A stretch of 64,000 nucleotides of DNA from positions 1 through 64,000 of the forward strand of contig NC_018721.1 in NCBI RefSeq assembly GCF_000153485.2, in the 5' to 3' direction. Made by a program: the position numbers and the translations under genes. The stretch's first letter is position 1. Every line of letters starts with the position of its first letter. This DNA is from Psychroflexus torquis ATCC 700755. Lineage in GTDB: Bacteria > Bacteroidota > Bacteroidia > Flavobacteriales > Flavobacteriaceae. Below are positions 1 through 9,540 of this stretch, in pieces. The notes beneath the pieces are model-generated. The model did no database searches, was not told the DNA's origin, and saw nothing but the letters and a program-made list of their open reading frames with translations.

Positions 1-1371
1 TTATTGAGCTTTCGCAAGGGTTTTCAAACGTGCATACTTTTCTATGTCAAATAGGTTGTAAAATTTAACCAAATTCTCATAGGGTCGCTGGCGTAGCTTC
101 CGATGCGCTTTCCTTCCTTTGCACTTCATCCATTTAAATAATTTGTAATCCAGATGCTTTTTAATGATTTTTATGGTTTCCCAAATATGTGTAACCTTAC
201 TGATAGAAAAGTAATTTAGCCAACCTCTTAATAATTGATTAACCTTCCATACTATCCACTCAATTGTCCAATGTTTTCGATTTGCAAATAATTCTCGCAA
301 TTTTGAAAACAATTTAGACCGTGACTTCATACTGGGTCGTACATTGGTGTAATTCTTGGCATTCCATCCAAATTTGGACTTTATACTTCTAAATTCAAAC
401 CCCAAAAAGAATAAACTGCTCTTGCTACTATGCAGAAGTTTTGTCTTTTCTTTATTTAACGTTAATCCCATATTGTCCATTATACTAGTGATATAGTCCA
501 GTATCTCTTTGCTGAAATACCATTTACCCATCAATAGAAAATCATCTGCATAACGAACTATGCGGATGTTTGCCTTGGCAAACTTCCCCTTTGGATTGTT
601 TACAATCTGGTCAAATGCATGGAGATATATGTTGGATAATAATGGCGAGATAACTCCCCCTTGTGGACTTCCTTTGGTACTCGCTACTAGCTTTCCGTTG
701 GGTAGCCGTACAGGCGCAGTTAACCATTGATGTATCAAACTTAAAATACTATGATCTACCAACCTTTTCTTTAGTAAAATAAATAATTTAGTATGCGGGA
801 TGGTGTCAAAATACTTCGACAAGTCCGCATCATAGACAAATTGATGCCTATCATAAATATTTTGTTTTACTTGCTTTATGGCGTCTTTTGCTCCTCGTTT
901 GGGTCTAAATCCAAAAGAGGTATGCTCAAAATCTGCCTCCCAAAGTGGCTCTATTAGCATCTTTACTGCCATTTGAACCACGCGGTCGCGAATTGTTGGT
1001 ATTCCTAATACCCTAAAATCTCCTTCCTTTTCCTTGGGGATGAGCTTTTGCTTTACTGCTTGGCTCCTGTAGGTGTGACCTTGTAAGTCTTGTTGAATCT
1101 CGCCAAGAAAAACAGATATTCCTTGCTTTTCAATAGCGTCAAAACTTTGATTGTCTACACCTACCCCTTTAGAATAGTTGCTCCTAACTCGTCGAAAAGC
1201 TTCTATAAGCGTATTGCCTTCACAGAGTTTTCCGTAAAGACTATAAGCCTTGAAGCCCTTATCTTGCTTGGCTCTAATATATAGCTTCCTCTGAAAAACA
1301 CGAATAGCTGCATCGCTTTGCGATGGACTTGTTAATAGATTTACATCAATACTTGTCATTCTGTCTTTCAT
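1..1371 (-). CDS. ltrA: Group II intron reverse transcriptase/maturase
   Basis: This 456-residue intron-encoded protein should copy intron RNA into DNA and help it splice. The sequence shows the reverse transcriptase fingers and palm: GIPTIRDRVVQ, FGFRP near residue 154, the catalytic D of YDADLSKYFD, SPQGGVISPLLSNIYLH, and the active-site YADD box (RYADDFLLMGK). A maturase X-domain follows (LRGWLNYF and the basic C-terminus). No HNH endonuclease domain is visible after the maturase domain, so target priming would need another 3' end, as in group IIC and similar introns. The frame is intact and of normal length for endonuclease-less maturases. It lies inside the intron that begins at 1839. 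Confidence 0.93.
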   Translation of the reverse strand: MKDRMTSIDVNLLTSPSQSDAAIRVFQRKLYIRAKQDKGFKAYSLYGKLCEGNTLIEAFRRVRSNYSKGVGVDNQSFDAIEKQGISVFLGEIQQDLQGHTYRSQAVKQKLIPKEKEGDFRVLGIPTIRDRVVQMAVKMLIEPLWEADFEHTSFGFRPKRGAKDAIKQVKQNIYDRHQFVYDADLSKYFDTIPHTKLFILLKKRLVDHSILSLIHQWLTAPVRLPNGKLVASTKGSPQGGVISPLLSNIYLHAFDQIVNNPKGKFAKANIRIVRYADDFLLMGKWYFSKEILDYITSIMDNMGLTLNKEKTKLLHSSKSSLFFLGFEFRSIKSKFGWNAKNYTNVRPSMKSRSKLFSKLRELFANRKHWTIEWIVWKVNQLLRGWLNYFSISKVTHIWETIKIIKKHLDYKLFKWMKCKGRKAHRKLRQRPYENLVKFYNLFDIEKYARLKTLAKAQ

Positions 1372-1839
1372 ATAAGCATATCTAAAGTAGTGTCCCTTTC
1401 CTAATTAGAGTTTTGTTGTCTCTAACATCATAGGTACTATGAACACCTCCGACTTCTCTTGCTACAGCTAGTAATTTCGTAATACTTATGTACTAGCTTT
1501 TATAGTTGCCACCATTTGTAACAAGAGACCTCCCACGTTTCGTAGTTTTCCATCTATAACCACGCCATCCCTATGACTCCGGTAGATTGTTACACTTCAT
1601 ACTACTGTTTATCCATGCAACATAACAGGGTTCGAGAACGTCGAAACTCTCCCCAATCTACAGATACACTTATCGAAGCTACTACGGGTTCACACTTGCG
1701 TATTACAGCTTGGTTATTTGAACATGCCCAGCTTCAGCGAAATCCTCACAAATTTAACTGTCGGCAGCTCTTCTAAATGAACAGCAAATTATTTAGGTAG
1801 GATTTACACCTACTGGAAAACCACAACTTCGTGGCGCAC
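1..1839 (-). mobile_element. Group II intron, 3' end outside window
   Basis: On the minus strand the sequence starting at 1839 reads GTGCGCCACGAAGTTGTGG, the typical 5' end (GUGYG) of a bacterial group II intron, followed by structured non-coding sequence and then the maturase gene 468 bases later. The maturase stop codon is bases 1-3, so domains V and VI and the 3' splice site lie beyond the window edge. The 5' exon ends in CACGTTG, the end of an attC-like repeat (1840-1970), so the intron sits in the crossover sequence of a putative integron cassette array. The intron class cannot be fixed without domain V. Confidence 0.85.
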
Positions 1840-1970
1840 CAACGTGTTTGTATAAGGTTAGTGGCGTGTTTGAGTAACTAATTTAGTAAAGAAAAGCCGA
1901 GTAGAAAATCTGCGAGGATTTTCGTAAGTAGGCGAGGACTAGCCATTAATTTTATACGTTGTTGGCAACT
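1840..1970 (-). repeat. attC-like cassette repeat A
   Basis: This imperfect palindrome of about 131 bp is clearly homologous to repeat B at 2602-2737. Both share the order outer arm, TTAATTGC-type block, central AAAAT...ATTTT hairpin, TTAGTTRCT block and a TATACAAA outer arm. Read on the minus strand it starts GTTGCCAACAACG and ends CACGTTG, where the group II intron begins. Its first eight bases, GTTGCCAA, are the exact reverse complement of TTGGCAAC, which opens the cassette on the other side of the 206-residue gene. That is the relation expected of an integron attC. It overlaps the end of the upstream gene. Confidence 0.65.
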
Positions 1971-2572
1971 GTTTTTTTTATAATTTCACTTAATAATCCA
2001 ATATTCAATATGTTTATAAATAAAATCAAAAGTAGTGTTCCTCCGTTTTCCAATAAATAGTTAAATATGTAAAATTGTGTTTTAGGTTTTTTAATTTTCC
2101 CTTCACCTCTTTTAAGCTTAAAAAAAAGTTTTTCAACTTCATAAAAGTCTGTTTTACTCAAACTTATTAATTCAATTTTTTCTGAATTTTTTAGTGAAAT
2201 TATAGTTTTATAATTAGATAACAAAAATCCCTTTTCAAACATATTCACTCCTGAGTAAATTTTTGTTTTTTCCTCAGTTTGTTTTATAGTTTTTATTTCC
2301 TCAAACTTTAAATTAGTTTTTTGAGGAAGTAAATATTTTTTTATTGTTATTCCATTTCTAGATATTTTTAATATTCGGATTTTAAATAATTGGTATAAAA
2401 TTATAATAGAAAATAAAGCAAAAATTCCAGCAAAACAATAGCCAATTATTTGATGTTCACCATTTGAAACTTGTAAACAAAAAAGTGCCACAATTAAAAA
2501 GAAAAAGAAACCGGAAATAAGTCCGCCAAAAAGGAATAATCTCGGTTTTGTTTTAAATAAAATATCCTTCAT
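1952..2572 (-). CDS. Hypothetical membrane protein in a cassette
   Basis: This 206-residue protein has two N-terminal transmembrane segments (about residues 13-35 and 42-62), a cytoplasmic-type domain rich in Lys and Glu (about 70-165), and a third hydrophobic segment near residues 175-195. I do not recognise the family; the layout (two helices, then a PH-like region with ISRNGITIKK) resembles small Bacteroidota membrane proteins of the DUF304/PH-domain type. It is the only gene between two copies of an attC-like repeat and reads in the same direction as the broken integrase, as a gene cassette would. Base composition is very AT-rich, like the neighbouring cassette. Confidence 0.75.
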   Translation of the reverse strand: MKDILFKTKPRLFLFGGLISGFFFFLIVALFCLQVSNGEHQIIGYCFAGIFALFSIIILYQLFKIRILKISRNGITIKKYLLPQKTNLKFEEIKTIKQTEEKTKIYSGVNMFEKGFLLSNYKTIISLKNSEKIELISLSKTDFYEVEKLFFKLKRGEGKIKKPKTQFYIFNYLLENGGTLLLILFINILNIGLLSEIIKKTVANNV

Positions 2573-2601
2573 TCTTCAAATTTCAGTTTGTTACACAAAT
2601 A

Positions 2602-2737
2602 GTTGCCAATGGTTTGTGTATGGTTAGTTGCGTGGTTAAGCAACTAAATTAATAAACAAATACGGACTAGAGAAAATTCCGAAGGAATTTTCCAAATAAG
2701 CACTTGCCAAAGCAATTAATTATACACCGTGTTGAAC
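2602..2737 (-). repeat. attC-like cassette repeat B
   Basis: This is a 136-bp imperfect palindrome. On the minus strand it opens with GTTCAACACGGTGTAT, fits RYYYAAC at GTTCAAC, contains the hairpin AAAATTCCTTCGGAATTTT, and closes with ATACACAAACCATTGGCAAC. The outer arms pair with each other (GTGTAT with ATACAC, and GTTGCTTAACCACGCAAC folds separately). It is homologous along its whole length to repeat A at 1840-1970. Its own cassette gene is missing: an IS91-type unit adjoins its 5' edge, so it is probably the remains of a cassette lost or cut by that insertion. Confidence 0.65.
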
Positions 2738-2790
2738 TAATCCTCGTACCTCGGAAGCTTCTAGAGTCAAGCTAAAAATACATTATCTTG

Positions 2791-3725
2791 ATGGATTCAC
2801 AAAAAACCTATAATGATGTATTTAAAAAAAAGTCAAAACGATTTTAGAAACGGCCTTAGACCAAGTTCCCGACTTTAAAGAACTTGCCCTTACTTTAGAA
2901 AAAAGCTTTGCCATCAATGGTAAAGCAAAAAGCACCTTAAACAATTACTTGCGCTGCCTTGCTCACTTGGCTATTTACTATAAATGCAGTCCTGTCCACC
3001 TTAGTGAAGAAGAGATCAACGACTACTTATTCCACTGCCAGAACCTACACAACACGCCTTCCGAAAGCTTTTTTAAACACACCATCTATGGTCTTCGATC
3101 TGCTTACAAGGTGATGGGAATGGATAAAAAGCGCATCCAGCTTCCGCAAATAAAAAGGCAGAATGATCTTCCCATTGTGCTCAACAAAAAGGAAGTTCGC
3201 GAGTTATTAAAGGCTCCTAAATACCTAAAACATCAATTGATGTTAGCTATGCTTTACGGCTGCGGATTGCGTAGCTACGAGCTTTGTAATTTGTTGCAGG
3301 CTGATATTGACTTTGAGCGTAAAACGGTATTTGTAAAAAAACAGAAAGGAAAAATAGACCGCTACGTTCCTTTGAGTGCTCATTTAATTAGAGGCTTACA
3401 AAAATATTTTAAAACAGAAAATCCTGTAAAACATGTTTTCAACAGTCAGAAAACCACAGATTGTCTGCCAGGACCGATCACTACAAGAGCTCTCCAATGG
3501 GTTATTAAAGAATGTCGTCCTAAGGTAAACACACAAAAGAAGTTCACAGCCCACACTCTTAGACATTCCTACGCCACCCATTTGCTTGAAGATGGGCTCA
3601 ATATTATGTGTTTAAAAGAGCTTTTGGGGCACGCTCATATAGAAACTACCATTGTGTATTTGCAAGTGTCCAATTCTGGAAGTTCAGTTAAATTCAGTCC
3701 CCTGGATACCTTGTTTACAAACTAA
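2791..3725 (+). CDS. Tyrosine recombinase of IS91-type unit, frameshifted start
   Basis: This is a phage-integrase/XerD-type recombinase. The catalytic domain shows GCGLRSYELCNL (first Arg), KKQKGKIDRYVPL, HTLRHSYATHL (H-x-x-R) and LLGHAHIETTIVYLQV (His and the Tyr nucleophile). The open frame from 2949 lacks part of the N-terminal SAM-like domain. In-frame coding similarity continues upstream (ILETALDQVPDFKEL) to an A8 run at 2824-2831. A good start, ATG at 2791 (MDSQKTYNDVF), lies in another frame and joins the body only with one extra A. The gene is therefore frameshifted, or read by slippage on the A-run. Its stop overlaps the transposase start (TAATG), so the two are coupled. Confidence 0.8.
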
Positions 3726-4858
3726 TGCAACCCAAACATAGAGTAGCAGATGTATTGAATCTAGAGGTAGATCATCTACAAGAAATAGCCCATACCAGTT
3801 GGAATGAAAGAGCTTTGCATGCGATAAGAAAATGCCGCACTAAAGCTCTTGGTGGACATTTAGATTGGTGTATGAATTGCAAGAAGCTCCATTTGCAATT
3901 CAATTCCTGTCGCAATAGGCATTGTCCTACTTGCCAAGGGCATAAGCAGCATGAGTGGGTTGCTGCAAGAACGCAAGAACTCCTTCCTGTGCCTTATTTT
4001 CATGTTGTTTTTACACTCCCAGACCATCTCAATTCTGTGGCAATACCTTATCCCAAAGTGCTTTATAAGATCTTATTTGATAGCGCTTGGGAAACCCTAT
4101 CTGCCTTTGGACACAACCCCAAACATCTAGGTGCAAAACTAGGGATGATTGCCGTGCTACATACTTGGGGTCAGAATTTGCAATTGCACCCGCATTTGCA
4201 CTGTATTGTTCCAGGGGGAGGTGTTTGTGAGGCAGGATTCTGGAAAAAAGGAACAGCAAAAGATGATTTTCTATTTTCAGTAGAGGCGATGAGTGATAAA
4301 TTTAGAGGTCGTTTTGTGTCCAAATTACGAAAAGCACTTCCCCAATTACCCCAATCTTTATATGATAAGTTGTTCAAAAAAGAGTGGGTGGTGTATGCCA
4401 AATCTCCTTTTGGAAAACCAGAACATGTGATTGAATATTTAGGTAGGTACACCCATAAAATAGCGATAAGTAATCACCGTATCTTGTCGATTGATAAAGA
4501 AAAAAGGAGGATTACATTTAGTTTAAAAGACTATAGAAAAGGTGGGCAAAAAACCACACTAACACTCTCCACTAAAGAGTTTATAAGGCGTTTTCAACTC
4601 CATATTCTTTCCAAAGGCTTTACTCGAATAAGGCATTATGGGTTTTTGAGCAGCAGTTGGAAAAAAGAGAAGTTGCCGCTACTACAATTGCAATTAAGAG
4701 ATAAAAACTTGGCACACATATTAACCTTTGCCACTCAAGAGAAGTCCTTACATCGCTGTTGTCCAAGTTGTAAAAAGCAAACCTTGATCACACTTTTTAC
4801 TTTTGACAGTCGCGGGCCGCCAAAGGATCACAAAAAAATTATAAAGGATAAACTATAA
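3725..4858 (+). CDS. IS91 family transposase
   Basis: A 377-residue Y2-type rolling-circle transposase. The N-terminal zinc-binding domain has C-x2-C...C-x4-HCPTC (CMNCKKLHLQFNSCRNRHCPTC, about residues 48-69), followed by the LPVPYFHVVFTLPDHL strand and the conserved HLHCIVPGGG metal-binding motif (about residues 157-166). The YLGRYTHKIAISNHRI segment (about 240-255) carries the expected catalytic tyrosine region. The C-terminus has a second CCPSCKK zinc knuckle. Length is normal and the frame intact. The start overlaps the recombinase stop by one base. It cuts and replicates one strand of the element. Confidence 0.93.
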   Translation: MQPKHRVADVLNLEVDHLQEIAHTSWNERALHAIRKCRTKALGGHLDWCMNCKKLHLQFNSCRNRHCPTCQGHKQHEWVAARTQELLPVPYFHVVFTLPDHLNSVAIPYPKVLYKILFDSAWETLSAFGHNPKHLGAKLGMIAVLHTWGQNLQLHPHLHCIVPGGGVCEAGFWKKGTAKDDFLFSVEAMSDKFRGRFVSKLRKALPQLPQSLYDKLFKKEWVVYAKSPFGKPEHVIEYLGRYTHKIAISNHRILSIDKEKRRITFSLKDYRKGGQKTTLTLSTKEFIRRFQLHILSKGFTRIRHYGFLSSSWKKEKLPLLQLQLRDKNLAHILTFATQEKSLHRCCPSCKKQTLITLFTFDSRGPPKDHKKIIKDKL

Positions 4859-5097
4859 TACAAAAATTAAAAAACAGTTCTAAAAAGAGCCTTGACTTAC
4901 TAGTGCCTAAACTGAAGGAAAATGATAAAAAACAGCAGATTCTAACACAAAAAAAGCATGATCTCACTAAAAAGTACCTTATTTAGATAAGCAACTGAAT
5001 AAAAAGGGATGCAAAGCACTCTAAAAACAACCTTCTCCTCTTGTAAGGTTCCTGCCAACTCATCGAATTCCCCCTTACCAGCAATCCCGGATCAGTC

Positions 5098-5154
5098 AAC
5101 AAATCATATAGCTTTGGCCTATCGGCAAGCCATATGCTTAGTTATTGTAAAACG
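5098..5154 (-). repeat. attC-like repeat C, apparently truncated
   Basis: After the stop of the two-gene cassette, the minus strand reads GTTTTACAATAACTAAGC, then an imperfect palindrome CATATGGCTTGCC...GGCCAAAGCTATATG. Its first nine bases, GTTTTACAA, are the exact reverse complement of TTGTAAAAC, which opens this cassette at 6081. The far arm does not return to that sequence and instead runs into the IS91-type unit, so the repeat seems cut by that insertion. It is shorter and more diverged than repeats A and B. Confidence 0.5.
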
Positions 5155-5158
5155 TTTT

Positions 5159-5662
5159 TTATTCAGACGGGAATTTATATTTACCATCTATTAACTCCCA
5201 ATTATTTTTCTTTCGGTCAAACACAAATCTCATATCAGGAACGTAGCCATTTGTTCCGCCACATTCTAATGCAAAATCCGCTTTTTTAAATCTCAGTCCG
5301 TTGTTGAAATGAATTTTCCGCTTTCCTGTAATATTTACAATTCCAAAATTCACGTCAACTGTATCAATTCCAATTATTTTGTGAGTAAGACGCAAAACCC
5401 GAATTGTCTTTTTTCCTTTAATTGACAAATCAATTAGTTCTTCATTAGTCAAGAATTTGTATCGGTCAGATACATTCAGTTTGGAAATTCGTTTTCCGTT
5501 TTCATTTAGTTCGATATATTTCCAACCGCTGGAAAGCAAAAGATCAAATCTACTATTCAATACTTGGACATAAATACTGTCCAATTCGCCTTTTTCAATC
5601 GTATTCAGTTCGTTTTCTTGTCCAAAAGTCAAAAACCCAATTAAAGTCAATATGATTGTCAA
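5159..5662 (-). CDS. Hypothetical secreted protein in a cassette
   Basis: A protein of 167 residues from a TTG start. It begins with a short hydrophobic stretch (TIILTLIGFLTFGQ) that looks like a signal peptide ending near residue 15, so export to the periplasm is likely. The rest is a mixed alpha/beta domain with no motif I recognise. It follows the preceding gene by only 11 bases with no repeat between them, so both belong to one cassette. A better start could lie in the overlap with the upstream gene. Small exported proteins of unknown function are typical cassette cargo. Confidence 0.65.
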   Translation of the reverse strand: MTIILTLIGFLTFGQENELNTIEKGELDSIYVQVLNSRFDLLLSSGWKYIELNENGKRISKLNVSDRYKFLTNEELIDLSIKGKKTIRVLRLTHKIIGIDTVDVNFGIVNITGKRKIHFNNGLRFKKADFALECGGTNGYVPDMRFVFDRKKNNWELIDGKYKFPSE

Positions 5663-5673
5663 AATATTTTTTT

Positions 5674-6069
5674 TTATTTTATTCGTACAAATTTTCCAGA
5701 ATGTGAAATCACGTGTAAATTCACTCGCATTGTAAAATCAATCGTATCATTTTTACAATCCGTAATCTCATAGTATGGTTTTCCATTTGACATTAGGCTT
5801 TTTTGGAATTCAGTCAACGAGTCTTTTGGTTTTTCAATAGTTTTTAATCTAAAAGAGTTCTCTCCAAGACTTTCAATCTTATATTTACGGTTCAATTCAG
5901 AGTTTGTTTCGGTTAAGTTTTGTCCGTTTATTTCGAACTCAAATTTTGGATAGTTAGAAAACTGTTTGTCATAAATAACTTTATACTTACCGTTATTCAA
6001 ATCGCAATTGGTATCAGCGCATTTAAATCCGAAACAGAATAATATTAATATGTACAGAGTTTTTTTCAA
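5674..6069 (-). CDS. Hypothetical lipoprotein in a cassette
   Basis: A protein of 131 residues from a TTG start (TTGAAAAAAACTCTG). The N-terminus KKTLYILILFCFGFKC is a signal peptide with a plausible lipobox Cys at residue 17, so it is probably an anchored envelope protein. The rest is a small beta-rich domain (KYKVIYDKQF, KYKIESLGENSFRLK) of unknown family. It is the first gene after the broken integrase and would be driven from its side. The cassette starts about 12 bases upstream at TTGTAAAAC. Confidence 0.65.
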   Translation of the reverse strand: MKKTLYILILFCFGFKCADTNCDLNNGKYKVIYDKQFSNYPKFEFEINGQNLTETNSELNRKYKIESLGENSFRLKTIEKPKDSLTEFQKSLMSNGKPYYEITDCKNDTIDFTMRVNLHVISHSGKFVRIK

Positions 6070-6072
6070 AAT

Positions 6073-6126
6073 GTTTTACAACGTACGGATAACACAACAA
6101 GTTGTGTTATCTCCATTATTAAAACA
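6073..6126 (-). promoter_or_regulatory. Palindrome and cassette junction, putative attI region
   Basis: Between the integrase stop (6127) and the first cassette gene lies a perfect palindrome, arms GATAACACAAC and GTTGTGTTATC with a 2-base loop (6088-6111), and then CGTACGTTGTAAAAC on the minus strand. TTGTAAAAC (6081-6073) is matched in inverse by the start of repeat C at the end of the cassette. In integrons with an inverted integrase gene, attI lies in this position, just 3' of the integrase. The palindrome could equally be a transcription terminator, although it has no clear T-tract. Confidence 0.4.
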
Positions 6127-7417
6127 CTAATCTAAGGGATTTTTTATTGATTTAAATGTATTTGTTGCCACATGAGTGTAAATTTCTGTCGTTTTAGTGG
6201 ATTGATGCCCTAATAATACCTGTATTTGTCTTAAGTCAACTCCTGCTTCTAGAAGATGTGTAGCAAAACTATGCCTGAGCATATGAGGAGTTACAGGAAT
6301 TCTAATCTTTGCTTTAAAAGCCGCTTTCTTTACAACGTTAACGACCGCTTGACCACTGTACTTACCAACCTTCTGCCCTTCAAATAAATACGCTTTCGGT
6401 TTCCAGTTTCTGTAATAGCAGCGTAAATCTAACAATGCATTTTGCGATAATAGGGTAAGCCTATCCTTATTCCCCTTGGCCTTTTTTATCCGCACAAGCA
6501 TACGTTTACTATCTATATCTTCAAGTTTTAAATTAATCAATTCACTGCGGCGTAAACCAGAGCCATACAGAAGTTCAACAATACACCTGTGTTTAAGGTT
6601 ATTGGTGTGAGCAATAAGGGCCAGAACCTCTTCCTTGGAAATTATAGTAGGTAGCTTATATCAATTTAGTTTTTAAATGTTGTATTAAAAATTTGAATTA
6701 TTTTTTACTTAATTGAGGAAAAAAATATAAGCATAGCATTAGTTACGGTTCTATTTTATGACGATTAATAAGTGAAAAAGAAACTTATTTTATCCGACAT
6801 TTAGATACTATATTGGTATGAAACTCCTTTCTAGGTCTTTCTATCTCATAAAACCGATTAGGCATACCCAATACAACTTCATAATAAAATTTGATGGCGT
6901 TAATGGCTTGATTAACGCAAGAGTTGGACTTACCTTGGCGAATAAGCAGTTGTAGATACGCCCGTATGTGGCTTTCATTAATGGCCTGCAAATCTATATG
7001 TGGATACTGGTTTATAAAGTGTTCAAAAAAATGAACATAAGTTCGTATCGTGCTATTCGCATACCGTTTAAGCTCTAGTTTTAGTAAGTATTCTTCCGGA
7101 CAAACACGGTGCTGTTTGGTGACTTTCCGTTTTCTGTACCAGTCAATATCTACCTCTTCATTAGAGGTATGAATAGGTCTATTGGTTAGAAATCGGTTAT
7201 AATTAATCCAAGCCACTCCTTTAAAAGTAGTGTAAATAGTAGACAGGTTGTTTTTGGTATTTAAAACATAGGCCATATTATGATCTGCACTCCATTTAGG
7301 ATTATCCAGACTTTTTATAAGCGCCTGTAAAACCTTATCTGGTGTAAACTTGATACCTATCATTTTTTTATTGTTGAGCATCAAATGATAGAGAGTAATG
7401 TTCTTGAGCATATTCAT
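6127..7417 (-). pseudogene. Integron-type tyrosine recombinase split by a MITE
   Basis: Two fragments of one recombinase. Residues 1-199 (7417-6821) carry the N-terminal SAM-like DNA-binding domain and end at ...YEIERPRKEF. The catalytic half (about 6656-6127) runs LPTIISKEEVLALIAHTNN, YGSGLRRSELINLKL, then HMLRHSFATHLLEAGVDLRQ, LLGHQSTKTTEIYTHV and IKNPLD. A 160-bp MITE (6659-6818) sits between them and supplies a stop, so no full-length enzyme can be made. Joined, the protein would be about 375 residues. The THV...PLD ending is like IntI enzymes (THV...SPLD), although related XerD-like enzymes of Bacteroidota share it. It reads in the same direction as the cassettes. Confidence 0.85.
6659..6818 (+). 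mobile_element. MITE copy inside the integrase gene
   Basis: A 160-bp element with imperfect inverted ends (TATCAATTTAGTTTTTAAATGT at the left; the right end reads TACCAATATAGTATCTAAATGT in reverse), flanked by TTA and TGA, both TNA. The interior shares GCATAG.ATTAGYTACGGT with the MITE copies at 8124, 9765 and 37134 in the same orientation. It interrupts the tyrosine recombinase. Confidence 0.8.
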
Positions 7418-7481: not shown

Positions 7482-7835
7482 ATGATTGATCATAAAATCT
7501 GTCCAGTCTGTGAATCTCCCCTAAAAGGAAGATCAGATAAGAAGTTTTGCTCTACAAAATGCAAGTCGATTCACCAGTACGAAACTCGGCAGAAAAAAGA
7601 AGCCTTCTATTTGGAAGTAGACCGACGATTGAAAACGAATCGGAAAGTATTAAAAACATATAATTTTAGGGGATTTACTACTGTGCGGAAAGAATTGCTT
7701 ATCAACGATGGGTTTGATCCTAATTTTTTCACACACTACTGGAAAAATAGCAAAGGAGATATCTATCTTTTCGTTTACGATTATGGATTTTTAGACCTTA
7801 AAAAGTCAGGGAAGGACAAATACCTTATTGTTTAA
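7482..7835 (+). CDS. Small zinc-ribbon protein beside the integrase
   Basis: A protein of 117 residues. Residues 6-30 form a C-x2-C...C-x3-C knuckle (KICPVCESPLKGRSDKKFC and the next Cys). A helical middle (YETRQKKEAFYLEVDRRLKTNRKVLK) and a conserved-looking C-terminus (GFDPNFFTHYW, YLFVYDYGFLDLKK, YLIV) follow. It resembles an uncharacterised family of short zinc-ribbon proteins common in Bacteroidota. It starts 64 bp from the integrase start and is read away from it, across a shared palindrome. A role in DNA binding is inference from the zinc ribbon only. A weak hairpin (7839-7868) follows the stop. Confidence 0.75.
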   Translation: MIDHKICPVCESPLKGRSDKKFCSTKCKSIHQYETRQKKEAFYLEVDRRLKTNRKVLKTYNFRGFTTVRKELLINDGFDPNFFTHYWKNSKGDIYLFVYDYGFLDLKKSGKDKYLIV

Positions 7836-8349: not shown

Positions 8350-9540
8350 TTAGGTCTTGTGGGAAAGAACACCTATAGTTTTGCGTCTTAGCGCAATCAA
8401 ACCTAGAATAGGGCCTAGAGCTAAAATGACATAAATGCTATTTGAATCGGTTAACTTAATCATCATAGTCATTATTTGAATGCTAATTATGGTTATGGAA
8501 TACCCTATACAATTAACGATAGTAAGTGCGGTGCCTTTCATCTCTGCTGGTGCATTCTGAGCAACAAGTGTTGATAAAAGGGGTGAATCTGCAATGACTA
8601 CTATTCCCCAAAACATAAGAAATCCAAGAAACAAGCTTTCAAATTCACTAGTAAATACCCATGGAGAAATAAGGCAACATCCACAGGATAAAAGAAGGAC
8701 CATAAAGGCTGTCCGTTTGGTCCCTAAAACTTGTGAGAGATAGCCGCCAAATAGACAGCCCATCGCTCCTACTCCAATAATTAGAAATGATAGTAGAGGA
8801 ATATTAAATATGACTTGTGGATGTTCTACGTTGTATTTTTTTAGCATAATGGGTATAAAGGCCCAGAAAGCATATAACTCCCACATATGTCCAAAATATC
8901 CAAAAGCCACAGACCGAAATTTTAGATTGCGGAATACGCTAAAAAATGCTGATAAATCCGTTCGCTTGCTTTGTTTTCTGAACGGACCATCAGGCACCAG
9001 TATAAACATTAACAAGCCCCCTAAAACCCCAAGAGATGAAGTTGTTATCAGTACCGATTTCCAAGAATATACAAGAGTCATTTCGCTTAACAAATGAGGA
9101 AATGCAGTTCCCAACACTAAGGCACCAACTAAAAATCCCAGCGACTTACCAAGTCCTTTTTCATAATAATCCGCGGCAATTTTCATCCCAACTGGATAGA
9201 TACCCGCGAGAAAAAAGCCTGTAAAGAAACGAAGTGTAACTAAGCTCAATAAATTGTTTGCCTCCCATATGACTCCTAAATTGAAGAGTGATCCCAATAA
9301 AGCACTCACTAAAAAAACTTTTGAAGGTGGAAAGCGATCCGCGATTGTCAAAATAGCGAAAATCAAAGTGCCGATGATAAATCCAAACTGTACGGCTGAA
9401 GTTAAGTGCCCCAAAGCACTCACACCAAGATCAAAACTTATAACAAGATCGTTTATCACACCATTCCCAGCAAACCAAAGCGAAGTGCAGCAGAACTGAG
9501 AAAAAACAATGACGGGAAGTATTAATTTAGAGTGTTTCAC
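8350..9540 (-). CDS. MFS transporter
   Basis: A 396-residue membrane protein with about 12 hydrophobic segments, normal for the major facilitator superfamily. The first half shows the loop RFFTGFFLAGIYPVGMKIAADYY, typical of helix 4-5 in this group, and a central hydrophilic loop (PDGPFRKQSKRTDLS) separates the halves. The substrate cannot be told from sequence; YfkF/nitrate-nitrite-like and cyanate-like MFS are alternatives. No partner genes are nearby: a MITE lies on each side and a 15-bp inverted repeat brackets it. The frame is intact. It could have travelled with the repeats, but composition matches its neighbours. Confidence 0.9.
   Translation of the reverse strand: MKHSKLILPVIVFSQFCCTSLWFAGNGVINDLVISFDLGVSALGHLTSAVQFGFIIGTLIFAILTIADRFPPSKVFLVSALLGSLFNLGVIWEANNLLSLVTLRFFTGFFLAGIYPVGMKIAADYYEKGLGKSLGFLVGALVLGTAFPHLLSEMTLVYSWKSVLITTSSLGVLGGLLMFILVPDGPFRKQSKRTDLSAFFSVFRNLKFRSVAFGYFGHMWELYAFWAFIPIMLKKYNVEHPQVIFNIPLLSFLIIGVGAMGCLFGGYLSQVLGTKRTAFMVLLLSCGCCLISPWVFTSEFESLFLGFLMFWGIVVIADSPLLSTLVAQNAPAEMKGTALTIVNCIGYSITIISIQIMTMMIKLTDSNSIYVILALGPILGLIALRRKTIGVLSHKT

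Follow-up and report, generated by a model that had tools for sequence, protein, structure and literature searches.

What kind of system is represented by the tyrosine recombinase gene, gene cassettes and attC-like palindromes at the start of contig NC_018721.1 of Psychroflexus torquis ATCC 700755? Positions 1-64,000 of this contig were analysed, and this whole stretch is referred to here as the window. An earlier note, made from the sequence alone, had described part of its first 7.8 kb as a decayed integron-like array with an inverted integrase, similar to those of Treponema and since broken by three kinds of insertion. The present analysis suggests that the window contains the broken head of an integron-like array in which a Bacteroidota tyrosine recombinase that is not an IntI most likely captures circular cassettes, a reading that is given a probability of about 0.87.

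Two covariance models of the attC-like site were used, R1 being built on 13 sites from the P. torquis genome and R2 on 150 sites. Exactly two sites are identified by the models across the entire window (1841-1963 and 2607-2733), rather than the three attC-like palindromes described earlier. A candidate third, a short palindrome at approximately 5095-5144 that is perhaps not the one originally meant, was ruled out because it is part of the end of an IS91-type element. Read along the minus strand, the order is an integrase in two pieces, a palindrome, a cassette with two open reading frames (ORFs), a split attC-like site, a cassette with one ORF, a second attC-like site and a group II intron. 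The features, including a miniature inverted-repeat transposable element (MITE)-like repeat, are as follows:

7482-7835, plus strand: Zn-ribbon ORF of 117 aa, divergent from the integrase, candidate accessory gene (DUF2116 match below cut-off)
6785-7417, minus strand: integrase N-terminal piece, with an extension of about 95 aa and a SAM-like domain (PF13495, 1.5e-13)
6655-6822: MITE-like repeat splitting the integrase (42 matches in the P. torquis genome)
6127-6657, minus strand: integrase C-terminal catalytic piece (PF00589, E=4.4e-40)
6082-6126, minus strand: putative attI, a palindrome with 11-bp arms (6088-6111) and a 6-bp spacer, with the crossover predicted between 6082 and 6081 (identical attI at 2.885 Mb; similar palindromes behind other integrases)
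5145-6081, minus strand: cassette 1, ORFs 6069-5674 and 5662-5159, extending from the crossover as far as R'' of its own attC (matching ends)
2732-5144: IS91-type element in attC1 at R'' (Pfam and NCBIfam; ends placed by eye and common to other copies)
2607-2731, minus strand: inner part and R' of attC1, crossover between 2610 and 2609 (R1 122.6 bits, R2 109 bits; model match 2607-2733)
1843-2609, minus strand: cassette 2, ORF 2572-1952, 206 aa, no Pfam match over the cut-off (matching ends)
1841-1963, minus strand: attC2, crossover between 1843 and 1842 (R1 129 bits, R2 127.7 bits)
1-1839, minus strand: group II intron directly behind attC2, running off the contig start (Rfam RF02003 at 1698-1815, below its gathering score)

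The cassettes lie on the minus strand in a single orientation, as had been noted, and both are present. Seven further sites on the same strand are found at 4302000-4321832 of the single contig, and these rule out a remnant of only two cassettes. On a circular contig they would adjoin position 1, and the array would thus be longer than the part within the window.

Integron cassettes would be expected to have complementary ends, because the two ends form the outer attC stem in the circular form. Neighbouring site pairs within loci were therefore scored as matching when at least 6 of 8 positions agreed, with mismatched pairs from the same loci as decoys. Complementary ends are present in 148 of 155 cassettes of less than 1 kb versus 124 of 2592 decoys, and the mean was reached in 0 of 5000 permutations. 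For cassettes of 1-3.5 kb the count is 30 of 60. An earlier run with a narrower model had matched 62 of 107 at the same threshold, versus 46 of 992 same-locus decoys and 8 of 149 comparisons of the two flanks of one linear site. In 137 of the 155 shorter cassettes an A/G difference follows at the next end position, giving an A.C mismatch on the top strand and a T.G wobble on the bottom strand. The outer stem is approximately 8-12 bp, drawn from the cassette's own two ends. Both window cassettes follow the same rule, including the A/G position, when compared by eye: the start of cassette 1, TTGTAAAACATTTT, agrees with R'' read as its reverse complement, position 9 showing the A/G difference, and the start of cassette 2 is TTGGCAACTATTTG against an R'' reverse complement of TTGGCAACTGTTTT.

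Strand asymmetry is evident when matched-end cassettes are folded as DNA in the circular form, with the bottom strand more stable by over 0.5 kcal/mol at 167 of 174 sites and the top strand at 2. This circular-form test is stronger than folding the two window sites alone, where the asymmetry is weak (z -0.6/-1.5 for attC2 and -3.3/-3.7 for attC1). The 178 matched-end cassettes start with TTR in 174 cases and TTRRRY in 6, and their longest ORF runs in the attC direction in 165, in the opposite direction in 7 and is absent in 6. No dominant cassette function emerged from a Pfam search of 81 proteins, which comprised 78 of 164 distinct forward ORFs (every second one, with 4 of those 82 omitted) and the three of the window; the matches fall into 45 families, each in no more than two members.

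The cassettes rearrange as units, as judged from repeated copies within single loci. For example, in locus L172 one cassette starts at 6132, 12606 and 17293, another at 6554 and 16857, and others at 8424/15508 and 7460/10105. The bases upstream of these copies diverge until the last few before TT (the shared part being CG, CCG or GGCG), so that identical cassettes occur in shuffled order, joined between CG and TT. Duplication is seen in L160, where a 657-bp repeat (99.5% identity) ends within 16 bp of the crossovers and has another site between its copies. Up to CGTACGTTG the window platform and a sister at 2.885 Mb have the same sequence, and beyond it their cassettes differ. A candidate for cassette sharing between genera (L164/L167, 714 bp, 88%) was dropped, its ends not meeting the crossovers.

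The position of the sites relative to the integrase is equally regular. Across 20 integrase loci, 202 of 202 sites are on the strand of the integrase and 3' of it, although 18 of these loci have just 0.7-2.2 kb of 5' flank and two have about 12 kb. A fairer test uses 80 named loci in which each flank extends to as much as 10 kb; 39 sites are present in 12 of them, all Bacteroidota-named, and 37 of the 39 have this placement. The first cassette starts 27-136 bp behind the integrase stop codon in 16 of the 20 loci, with 7 to 9 of 9 bases matching. The inverted geometry proposed earlier, with attI 3' of the integrase, is thus borne out, as is the reading of the repeats as attC-like sites of cassettes: they bracket genes, have matching ends and are not at random places.

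Together with three regions from the P. torquis genome, two of them identical, those 16 loci provide 19 attI regions. In 14 of them a perfect palindrome (arms of 7-13 bp) stops 5-11 bp short of the crossover, each equalled by no more than 4 of 100 shuffles. The arms are 5-6 bp in L168, L224, L226 and L227, and L170 has a 9-bp palindrome ending 19 bp away. The motif TAnnTTTG, looked for as a sign of a cassette promoter Pc, occurs between the integrase stop and the crossover in 5 of the 19, a count that has no chance control.

The integrase itself is a tyrosine recombinase on the minus strand in two pieces, as had been described. The N-terminal piece has 72% identity over 198 aa to the integrase of L090, and no Pfam match over the cut-off covers its first 100 or so residues. 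The C-terminal piece has 76% identity to the integrase of L092 and 33-39% to the four IntI and Xer rows that match it best. An intact relative of 379 aa, free of stops, is present in the same genome (3774742-3775878). It shares just 49-52% identity with the C-terminal pieces and so belongs to a different branch from the window integrase. The spacing from the box-I arginine to HxxRH is 89 (35 sequences), 90 (2) or 92 (1) among the 38 scored of the 44 group integrases, versus 131 (17) or 103 (3) in 20 of 22 IntI and 96 (13) or 92 (1) in 14 of 14 Xer. The group integrases are without the IntI-specific segment of about 40 residues. The alignment of the intact relative to IntI4 (2a3v) splits in two around the region before HxLRH.

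Three trees were made. The first has IntI as one clade (100) and Xer as another (99), with a support of 87 for a group that holds 42 of the 44 rows and two phage integrases. A 58-row group in the second, at 95, consists of 24 of 25 of the group's own rows, two phage integrases and 32 added relatives; most of these relatives are Bacteroidota, and they include one metagenome-assembled genome (MAG) each from Undinarchaeales and Spirochaetota. The third, of 82 rows with viral sequences added, recovers IntI (100/100) and Xer (100/99) with the group integrases outside both, although the group is no longer a single clade (6 changes) and the backbone is weak. The group integrases are therefore outside the IntI clade, although the branches that would fix their relation to IntI are weakly supported. 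Nor are they plain XerC or XerD enzymes, Xer having its own clade in the first and third trees. The earlier note had named a firm grouping with either plain Xer or phage enzymes as a result that would refute its reading; the former was not seen, and phage-type integrases do fall near or among the group.

An AlphaFold model of the integrase has a mean predicted local distance difference test score of 84.6 and is low around the catalytic tyrosine. Its best Foldseek matches are the XerA-like 5hxy (2.1e-16) and 4a8e (4.5e-16), followed by IntI4 2a3v (7.2e-15). By sequence the best PDB match is 4a8e (1.7e-38), with 2a3v at 2.9e-30. XerA is a dif resolvase. The archaeal XerA and XerC-like proteins are the best matches in both comparisons, IntI4 being close behind, but many group members differ from them in having the N-terminal extension of about 95 aa and linked attC-like arrays.

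The integrases of L280 (Undinarchaeales MAG) and L282 (Spirochaetota MAG) are near the Bacteroidota group, and no R2 site was found within the approximately 1 kb or less of downstream DNA at either. In the Chryseobacterium plasmid NZ_CP041688.1 (L177), a group integrase precedes small genes that run the same way, an IS110 element and a group II intron, and there is one weak R2 site (30.8 bits).

The genome-wide covariance search proposed earlier found 68 R1 matches at E<=0.1 in the P. torquis genome (150 candidates scored). Unbroken versions of the array, in which many apparently interchangeable genes stand in long rows, are present in related bacteria. At E<=0.01, R1 sites are present in 37 of 46 chosen genomes of the same family, which named relatives in the second tree mark as very probably Flavobacteriaceae. 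These are 29 of the 30 selected because their integrase match was strong and 8 of 16 selected for having none at 1e-30. Three of the latter (G059, G071 and G097, with 14, 27 and 18 sites) look like arrays whose integrase was lost. Across the class, R2 matches at E<=1e-4 occur in at least 46 of 295 genomes (11 candidates per genome scored). The stem of the attC-like site covaries and the sites are more than chance: in an alignment not fitted to the model, 97% of stem cells are paired and 15 cells are changed on both sides, neither value being reached in 500 shuffles. A model-fitted alignment of 148 distinct sites has 11 of 13 pairs changed on both sides (0 of 500 shuffles), although such an alignment leans to structure.

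From the strand and position of the sites, the cassette ends, the shuffled cassettes and the stability of the bottom strand it follows that, as far as sequences can tell, the system behaves like an inverted-integrase integron. The missing integrase segment, the trees, the TIGR02249 score and the cassette starts place it outside the IntI integrons. Its mechanism may be envisaged as follows. A circular cassette would carry one attC-like site, and its single bottom strand would fold into a long hairpin, consisting of an inner stem common to the family and the outer stem from the cassette's own ends. The recombinase would cut between G and TT and insert the cassette at attI, which would be the palindrome with a short spacer leading to the G and TT of the crossover, just 3' of the integrase gene. 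New cassettes would enter beside the integrase and be read in its direction. The window copy is disrupted by the MITE-like repeat in the integrase, the IS91-type element in attC1 and the group II intron at the start of a third cassette.

Could this simply be a canonical IntI integron with an inverted integrase, only diverged? The geometry is that of Treponema, where the integrase is transcribed towards attI in the cassette direction, according to passages of PMC3607928, and the NCBIfam integron integrase profile TIGR02249 matches both pieces and the intact copy. These matches are all below the cut-off, that of the intact relative scoring 187.7 bits versus 265 and falling into two stretches, of which the first stops at profile position 181. 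The enzymes are termed integron integrases in those passages, whereas the P. torquis type is outside IntI in all three trees, which are without Treponema rows, and lacks the IntI segment. With TTRRRY so rare at cassette starts, the outer stem long and cassette-specific and the attI palindromic, assignment to a Treponema-type IntI integron, as the earlier note had it, is improbable. A chance about as small is given to the cassettes being moved by some other recombinase, XerC/D or a phage enzyme, with the linked integrase dispensable. Sites do persist in the 8 of 16 genomes chosen for having no integrase match, and phage-like contigs carry the site family with enzymes of their own, but the constant position and orientation beside the integrase, and attI directly behind its stop codon, argue for the linked enzyme.

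It is harder still to see the repeats as ordinary terminators or as repetitive extragenic palindromic (REP)-like or MITE-like sequences that happen to neighbour an unrelated recombinase. Hairpins do lie between co-directional genes, and this genome is rich in repeats and insertion elements. End complementarity specific to each cassette (0 of 5000 permutations), the shuffling of identical cassettes and the linkage to the integrase are not accounted for in this way, however, and the explanation is very improbable.

Several observations weigh against capture of cassettes by the non-IntI recombinase. Recombination has been deduced from sequence, none being observed. The window's attC1 has CATT where the family has CGTT. 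Two sites in L271, the only exceptions among the 39, are upstream of the integrase on the other strand, and no cassette start was found near the integrase in 4 of the 20 loci. Matching ends are missing from 30 of the 60 cassettes of 1-3.5 kb and 7 of the 155 shorter ones; missed sites likely explain the long cassettes. The family genomes without an integrase match retain up to 27 sites. In the unfitted alignment, the 4 of 13 pairs changed on both sides are equalled in 25 of 500 shuffles, and the pair-type count in 274 of 500.

The insertions into the array were largely as first described. The repeat within the integrase is approximately 165 bp, and its matches elsewhere in the genome bear out a repeated element that is consistent with a MITE, as had been stated more firmly. 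An identical copy is in a second integrase platform at 2.887 Mb. This platform (2.885-2.887 Mb) has 95.8% identity to the window over 1494 bp, and contains in its integrase region a transposase gene that we take to be ISXO2-like. The integrase break is probably older than the platform duplication, since the identical repeat is present in both. Decay describes the window copy; other copies look intact.

The IS91-type unit was recognized correctly. It encodes its own tyrosine recombinase (2949-3725, plus strand) and a Y2 transposase (3725-4858, plus strand), as identified by Pfam and NCBIfam, and 2549 bp are common to this element and L055 at 99.7%. It splits the attC of cassette 1 into an R'' half (5145-5153) and the remainder (2607-2731), as judged by eye, and it seems that the element inserts in the R'' part of attC. 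The palindrome-bearing end was seen in 15 copies across the P. torquis loci examined. Among the copies in the window and L047-L064, one end follows AAT in 14 of 15 and the other has CAACAC next in 4 of 4 copies seen.

The group II intron is supported by the RF02003 match (44.7 bits against a gathering score of 49, E=1.4e-7) and by an intron-like start, GTGCG at 1839, behind CACGTTG next to attC2. ORF 1371-1 is read from its sequence as the putative intron reverse transcriptase. Four such starts (window 1839, L051, L052 and L053) directly follow CGTTG or CGCTG, and three of the four are right behind an attC-like model match. Another element end, seen in 10 copies (L047, L048, L052, L053, L055, L056, L058 and L064), reads GTGTGCCAAGAATCA or nearly so and is preceded by CATA in 9 of them. 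Several of these fall within the inner arm of attC-like sites, and the element looks like an attC-targeting insertion sequence.

The Zn-ribbon ORF upstream of the window integrase has 31% identity to an ORF divergently upstream of the intact integrase. A small divergent Zn-ribbon ORF is present within 1.2 kb upstream of 27 of the 44 group integrases, and this gene is a candidate regulator or helper.

The site family is also associated with phage-like contigs. R2 was run on 50 of the 80 IMG/VR loci whose integrases are related, and it identified 40 sites in 14 loci. All are on the strand opposite to the integrase and 38 of the 40 are on its 5' side, the other two being in L350. Neighbouring pairs have matching ends in 21 of 25 cases versus 6 of 74 decoys. 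The integrases of these 14 contigs are 267-298 aa with a spacing of 83-92 and are without the IntI segment. Viral loci with this opposite layout of the same attC family include L334, L339, L344, L348, L350, L356, L361 and L366. In L361 and L366, the two contigs with ORFs listed, the larger ORFs between sites share the direction of the integrase, which is contrary to that of attC. By PHROGs, L366 has a replication initiator, HNH proteins, a DNA methyltransferase and a DnaB-like helicase; an HNH protein and a DNA methyltransferase are among the viral ORFs that lie between sites. The phage integrons described in PMC9892861 likewise have cassette sites on phage genomes. They are described there with integron-integrase genes, unlike these contigs, whose integrases are without the IntI segment, and the gene direction in L361 and L366 is a further difference.

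Set beside the IntI integrons, both class 1 and the chromosomal superintegrons, the P. torquis type is alike in having one attC per cassette, R''/R' complementarity, attI beside the integrase, hairpin strand asymmetry and, as predicted here, a crossover between G and TT. It differs in the absent IntI domain, the rarity of GTTRRRY, the palindrome in attI, and an outer stem that can reach about 12 positions and has a fixed A/G difference; the wobble pairs may set the choice of strand. The canonical attC core is GTTRRRY. Group II introns behind attC are a further likeness, group IIC-attC introns being described in PMC8876359. IntI is defined by an additional domain around patch III in PMC9668308, where this domain is described as needed for integron recombination, citing Messier and Roy 2001.

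Canonical IntI is not absent from the phylum, with 84 of 296 genomes over the TIGR02249 cut-off and P. torquis below it. G136 is the only one of the 84 labelled as belonging to the class of P. torquis, class membership among the 296 being only partly listed. According to the relevant passages of PMC9024848, only In0 elements were known in Bacteroidetes before IntegronFinder 2.0, which found complete integrons of the Bacteroidetes/Chlorobi group in Chlorobi, Ignavibacteriae and Salinibacter. The best reading of these sequences is a non-IntI integron class centred on Bacteroidota. The Bacteroidota lineage suggested at the outset is thus retained, and a brief check of the literature, in extracts, met no description of it.

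It may be, at about even odds, that integrons arose more than once, with XerA-like recombinases without the IntI domain giving rise to a second class. One attC family would then serve both Bacteroidota chromosomes, with the integrase in the cassette direction and a palindromic attI, and phages with the opposite layout. Strand choice would be set by the G.T wobble and the cassette-specific outer stem, and phages would be a possible route for spreading cassettes. The trees fit either two integron origins or a later gain of the IntI domain in one older system. If it is true that folded attC-like sites are used without the IntI domain, the origin of integrons and their choice of strand become testable. 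The site counts also indicate a large pool of cassettes that standard searches may miss, at least 76 sites being present in one genome of the P. torquis family (76 candidates scored).

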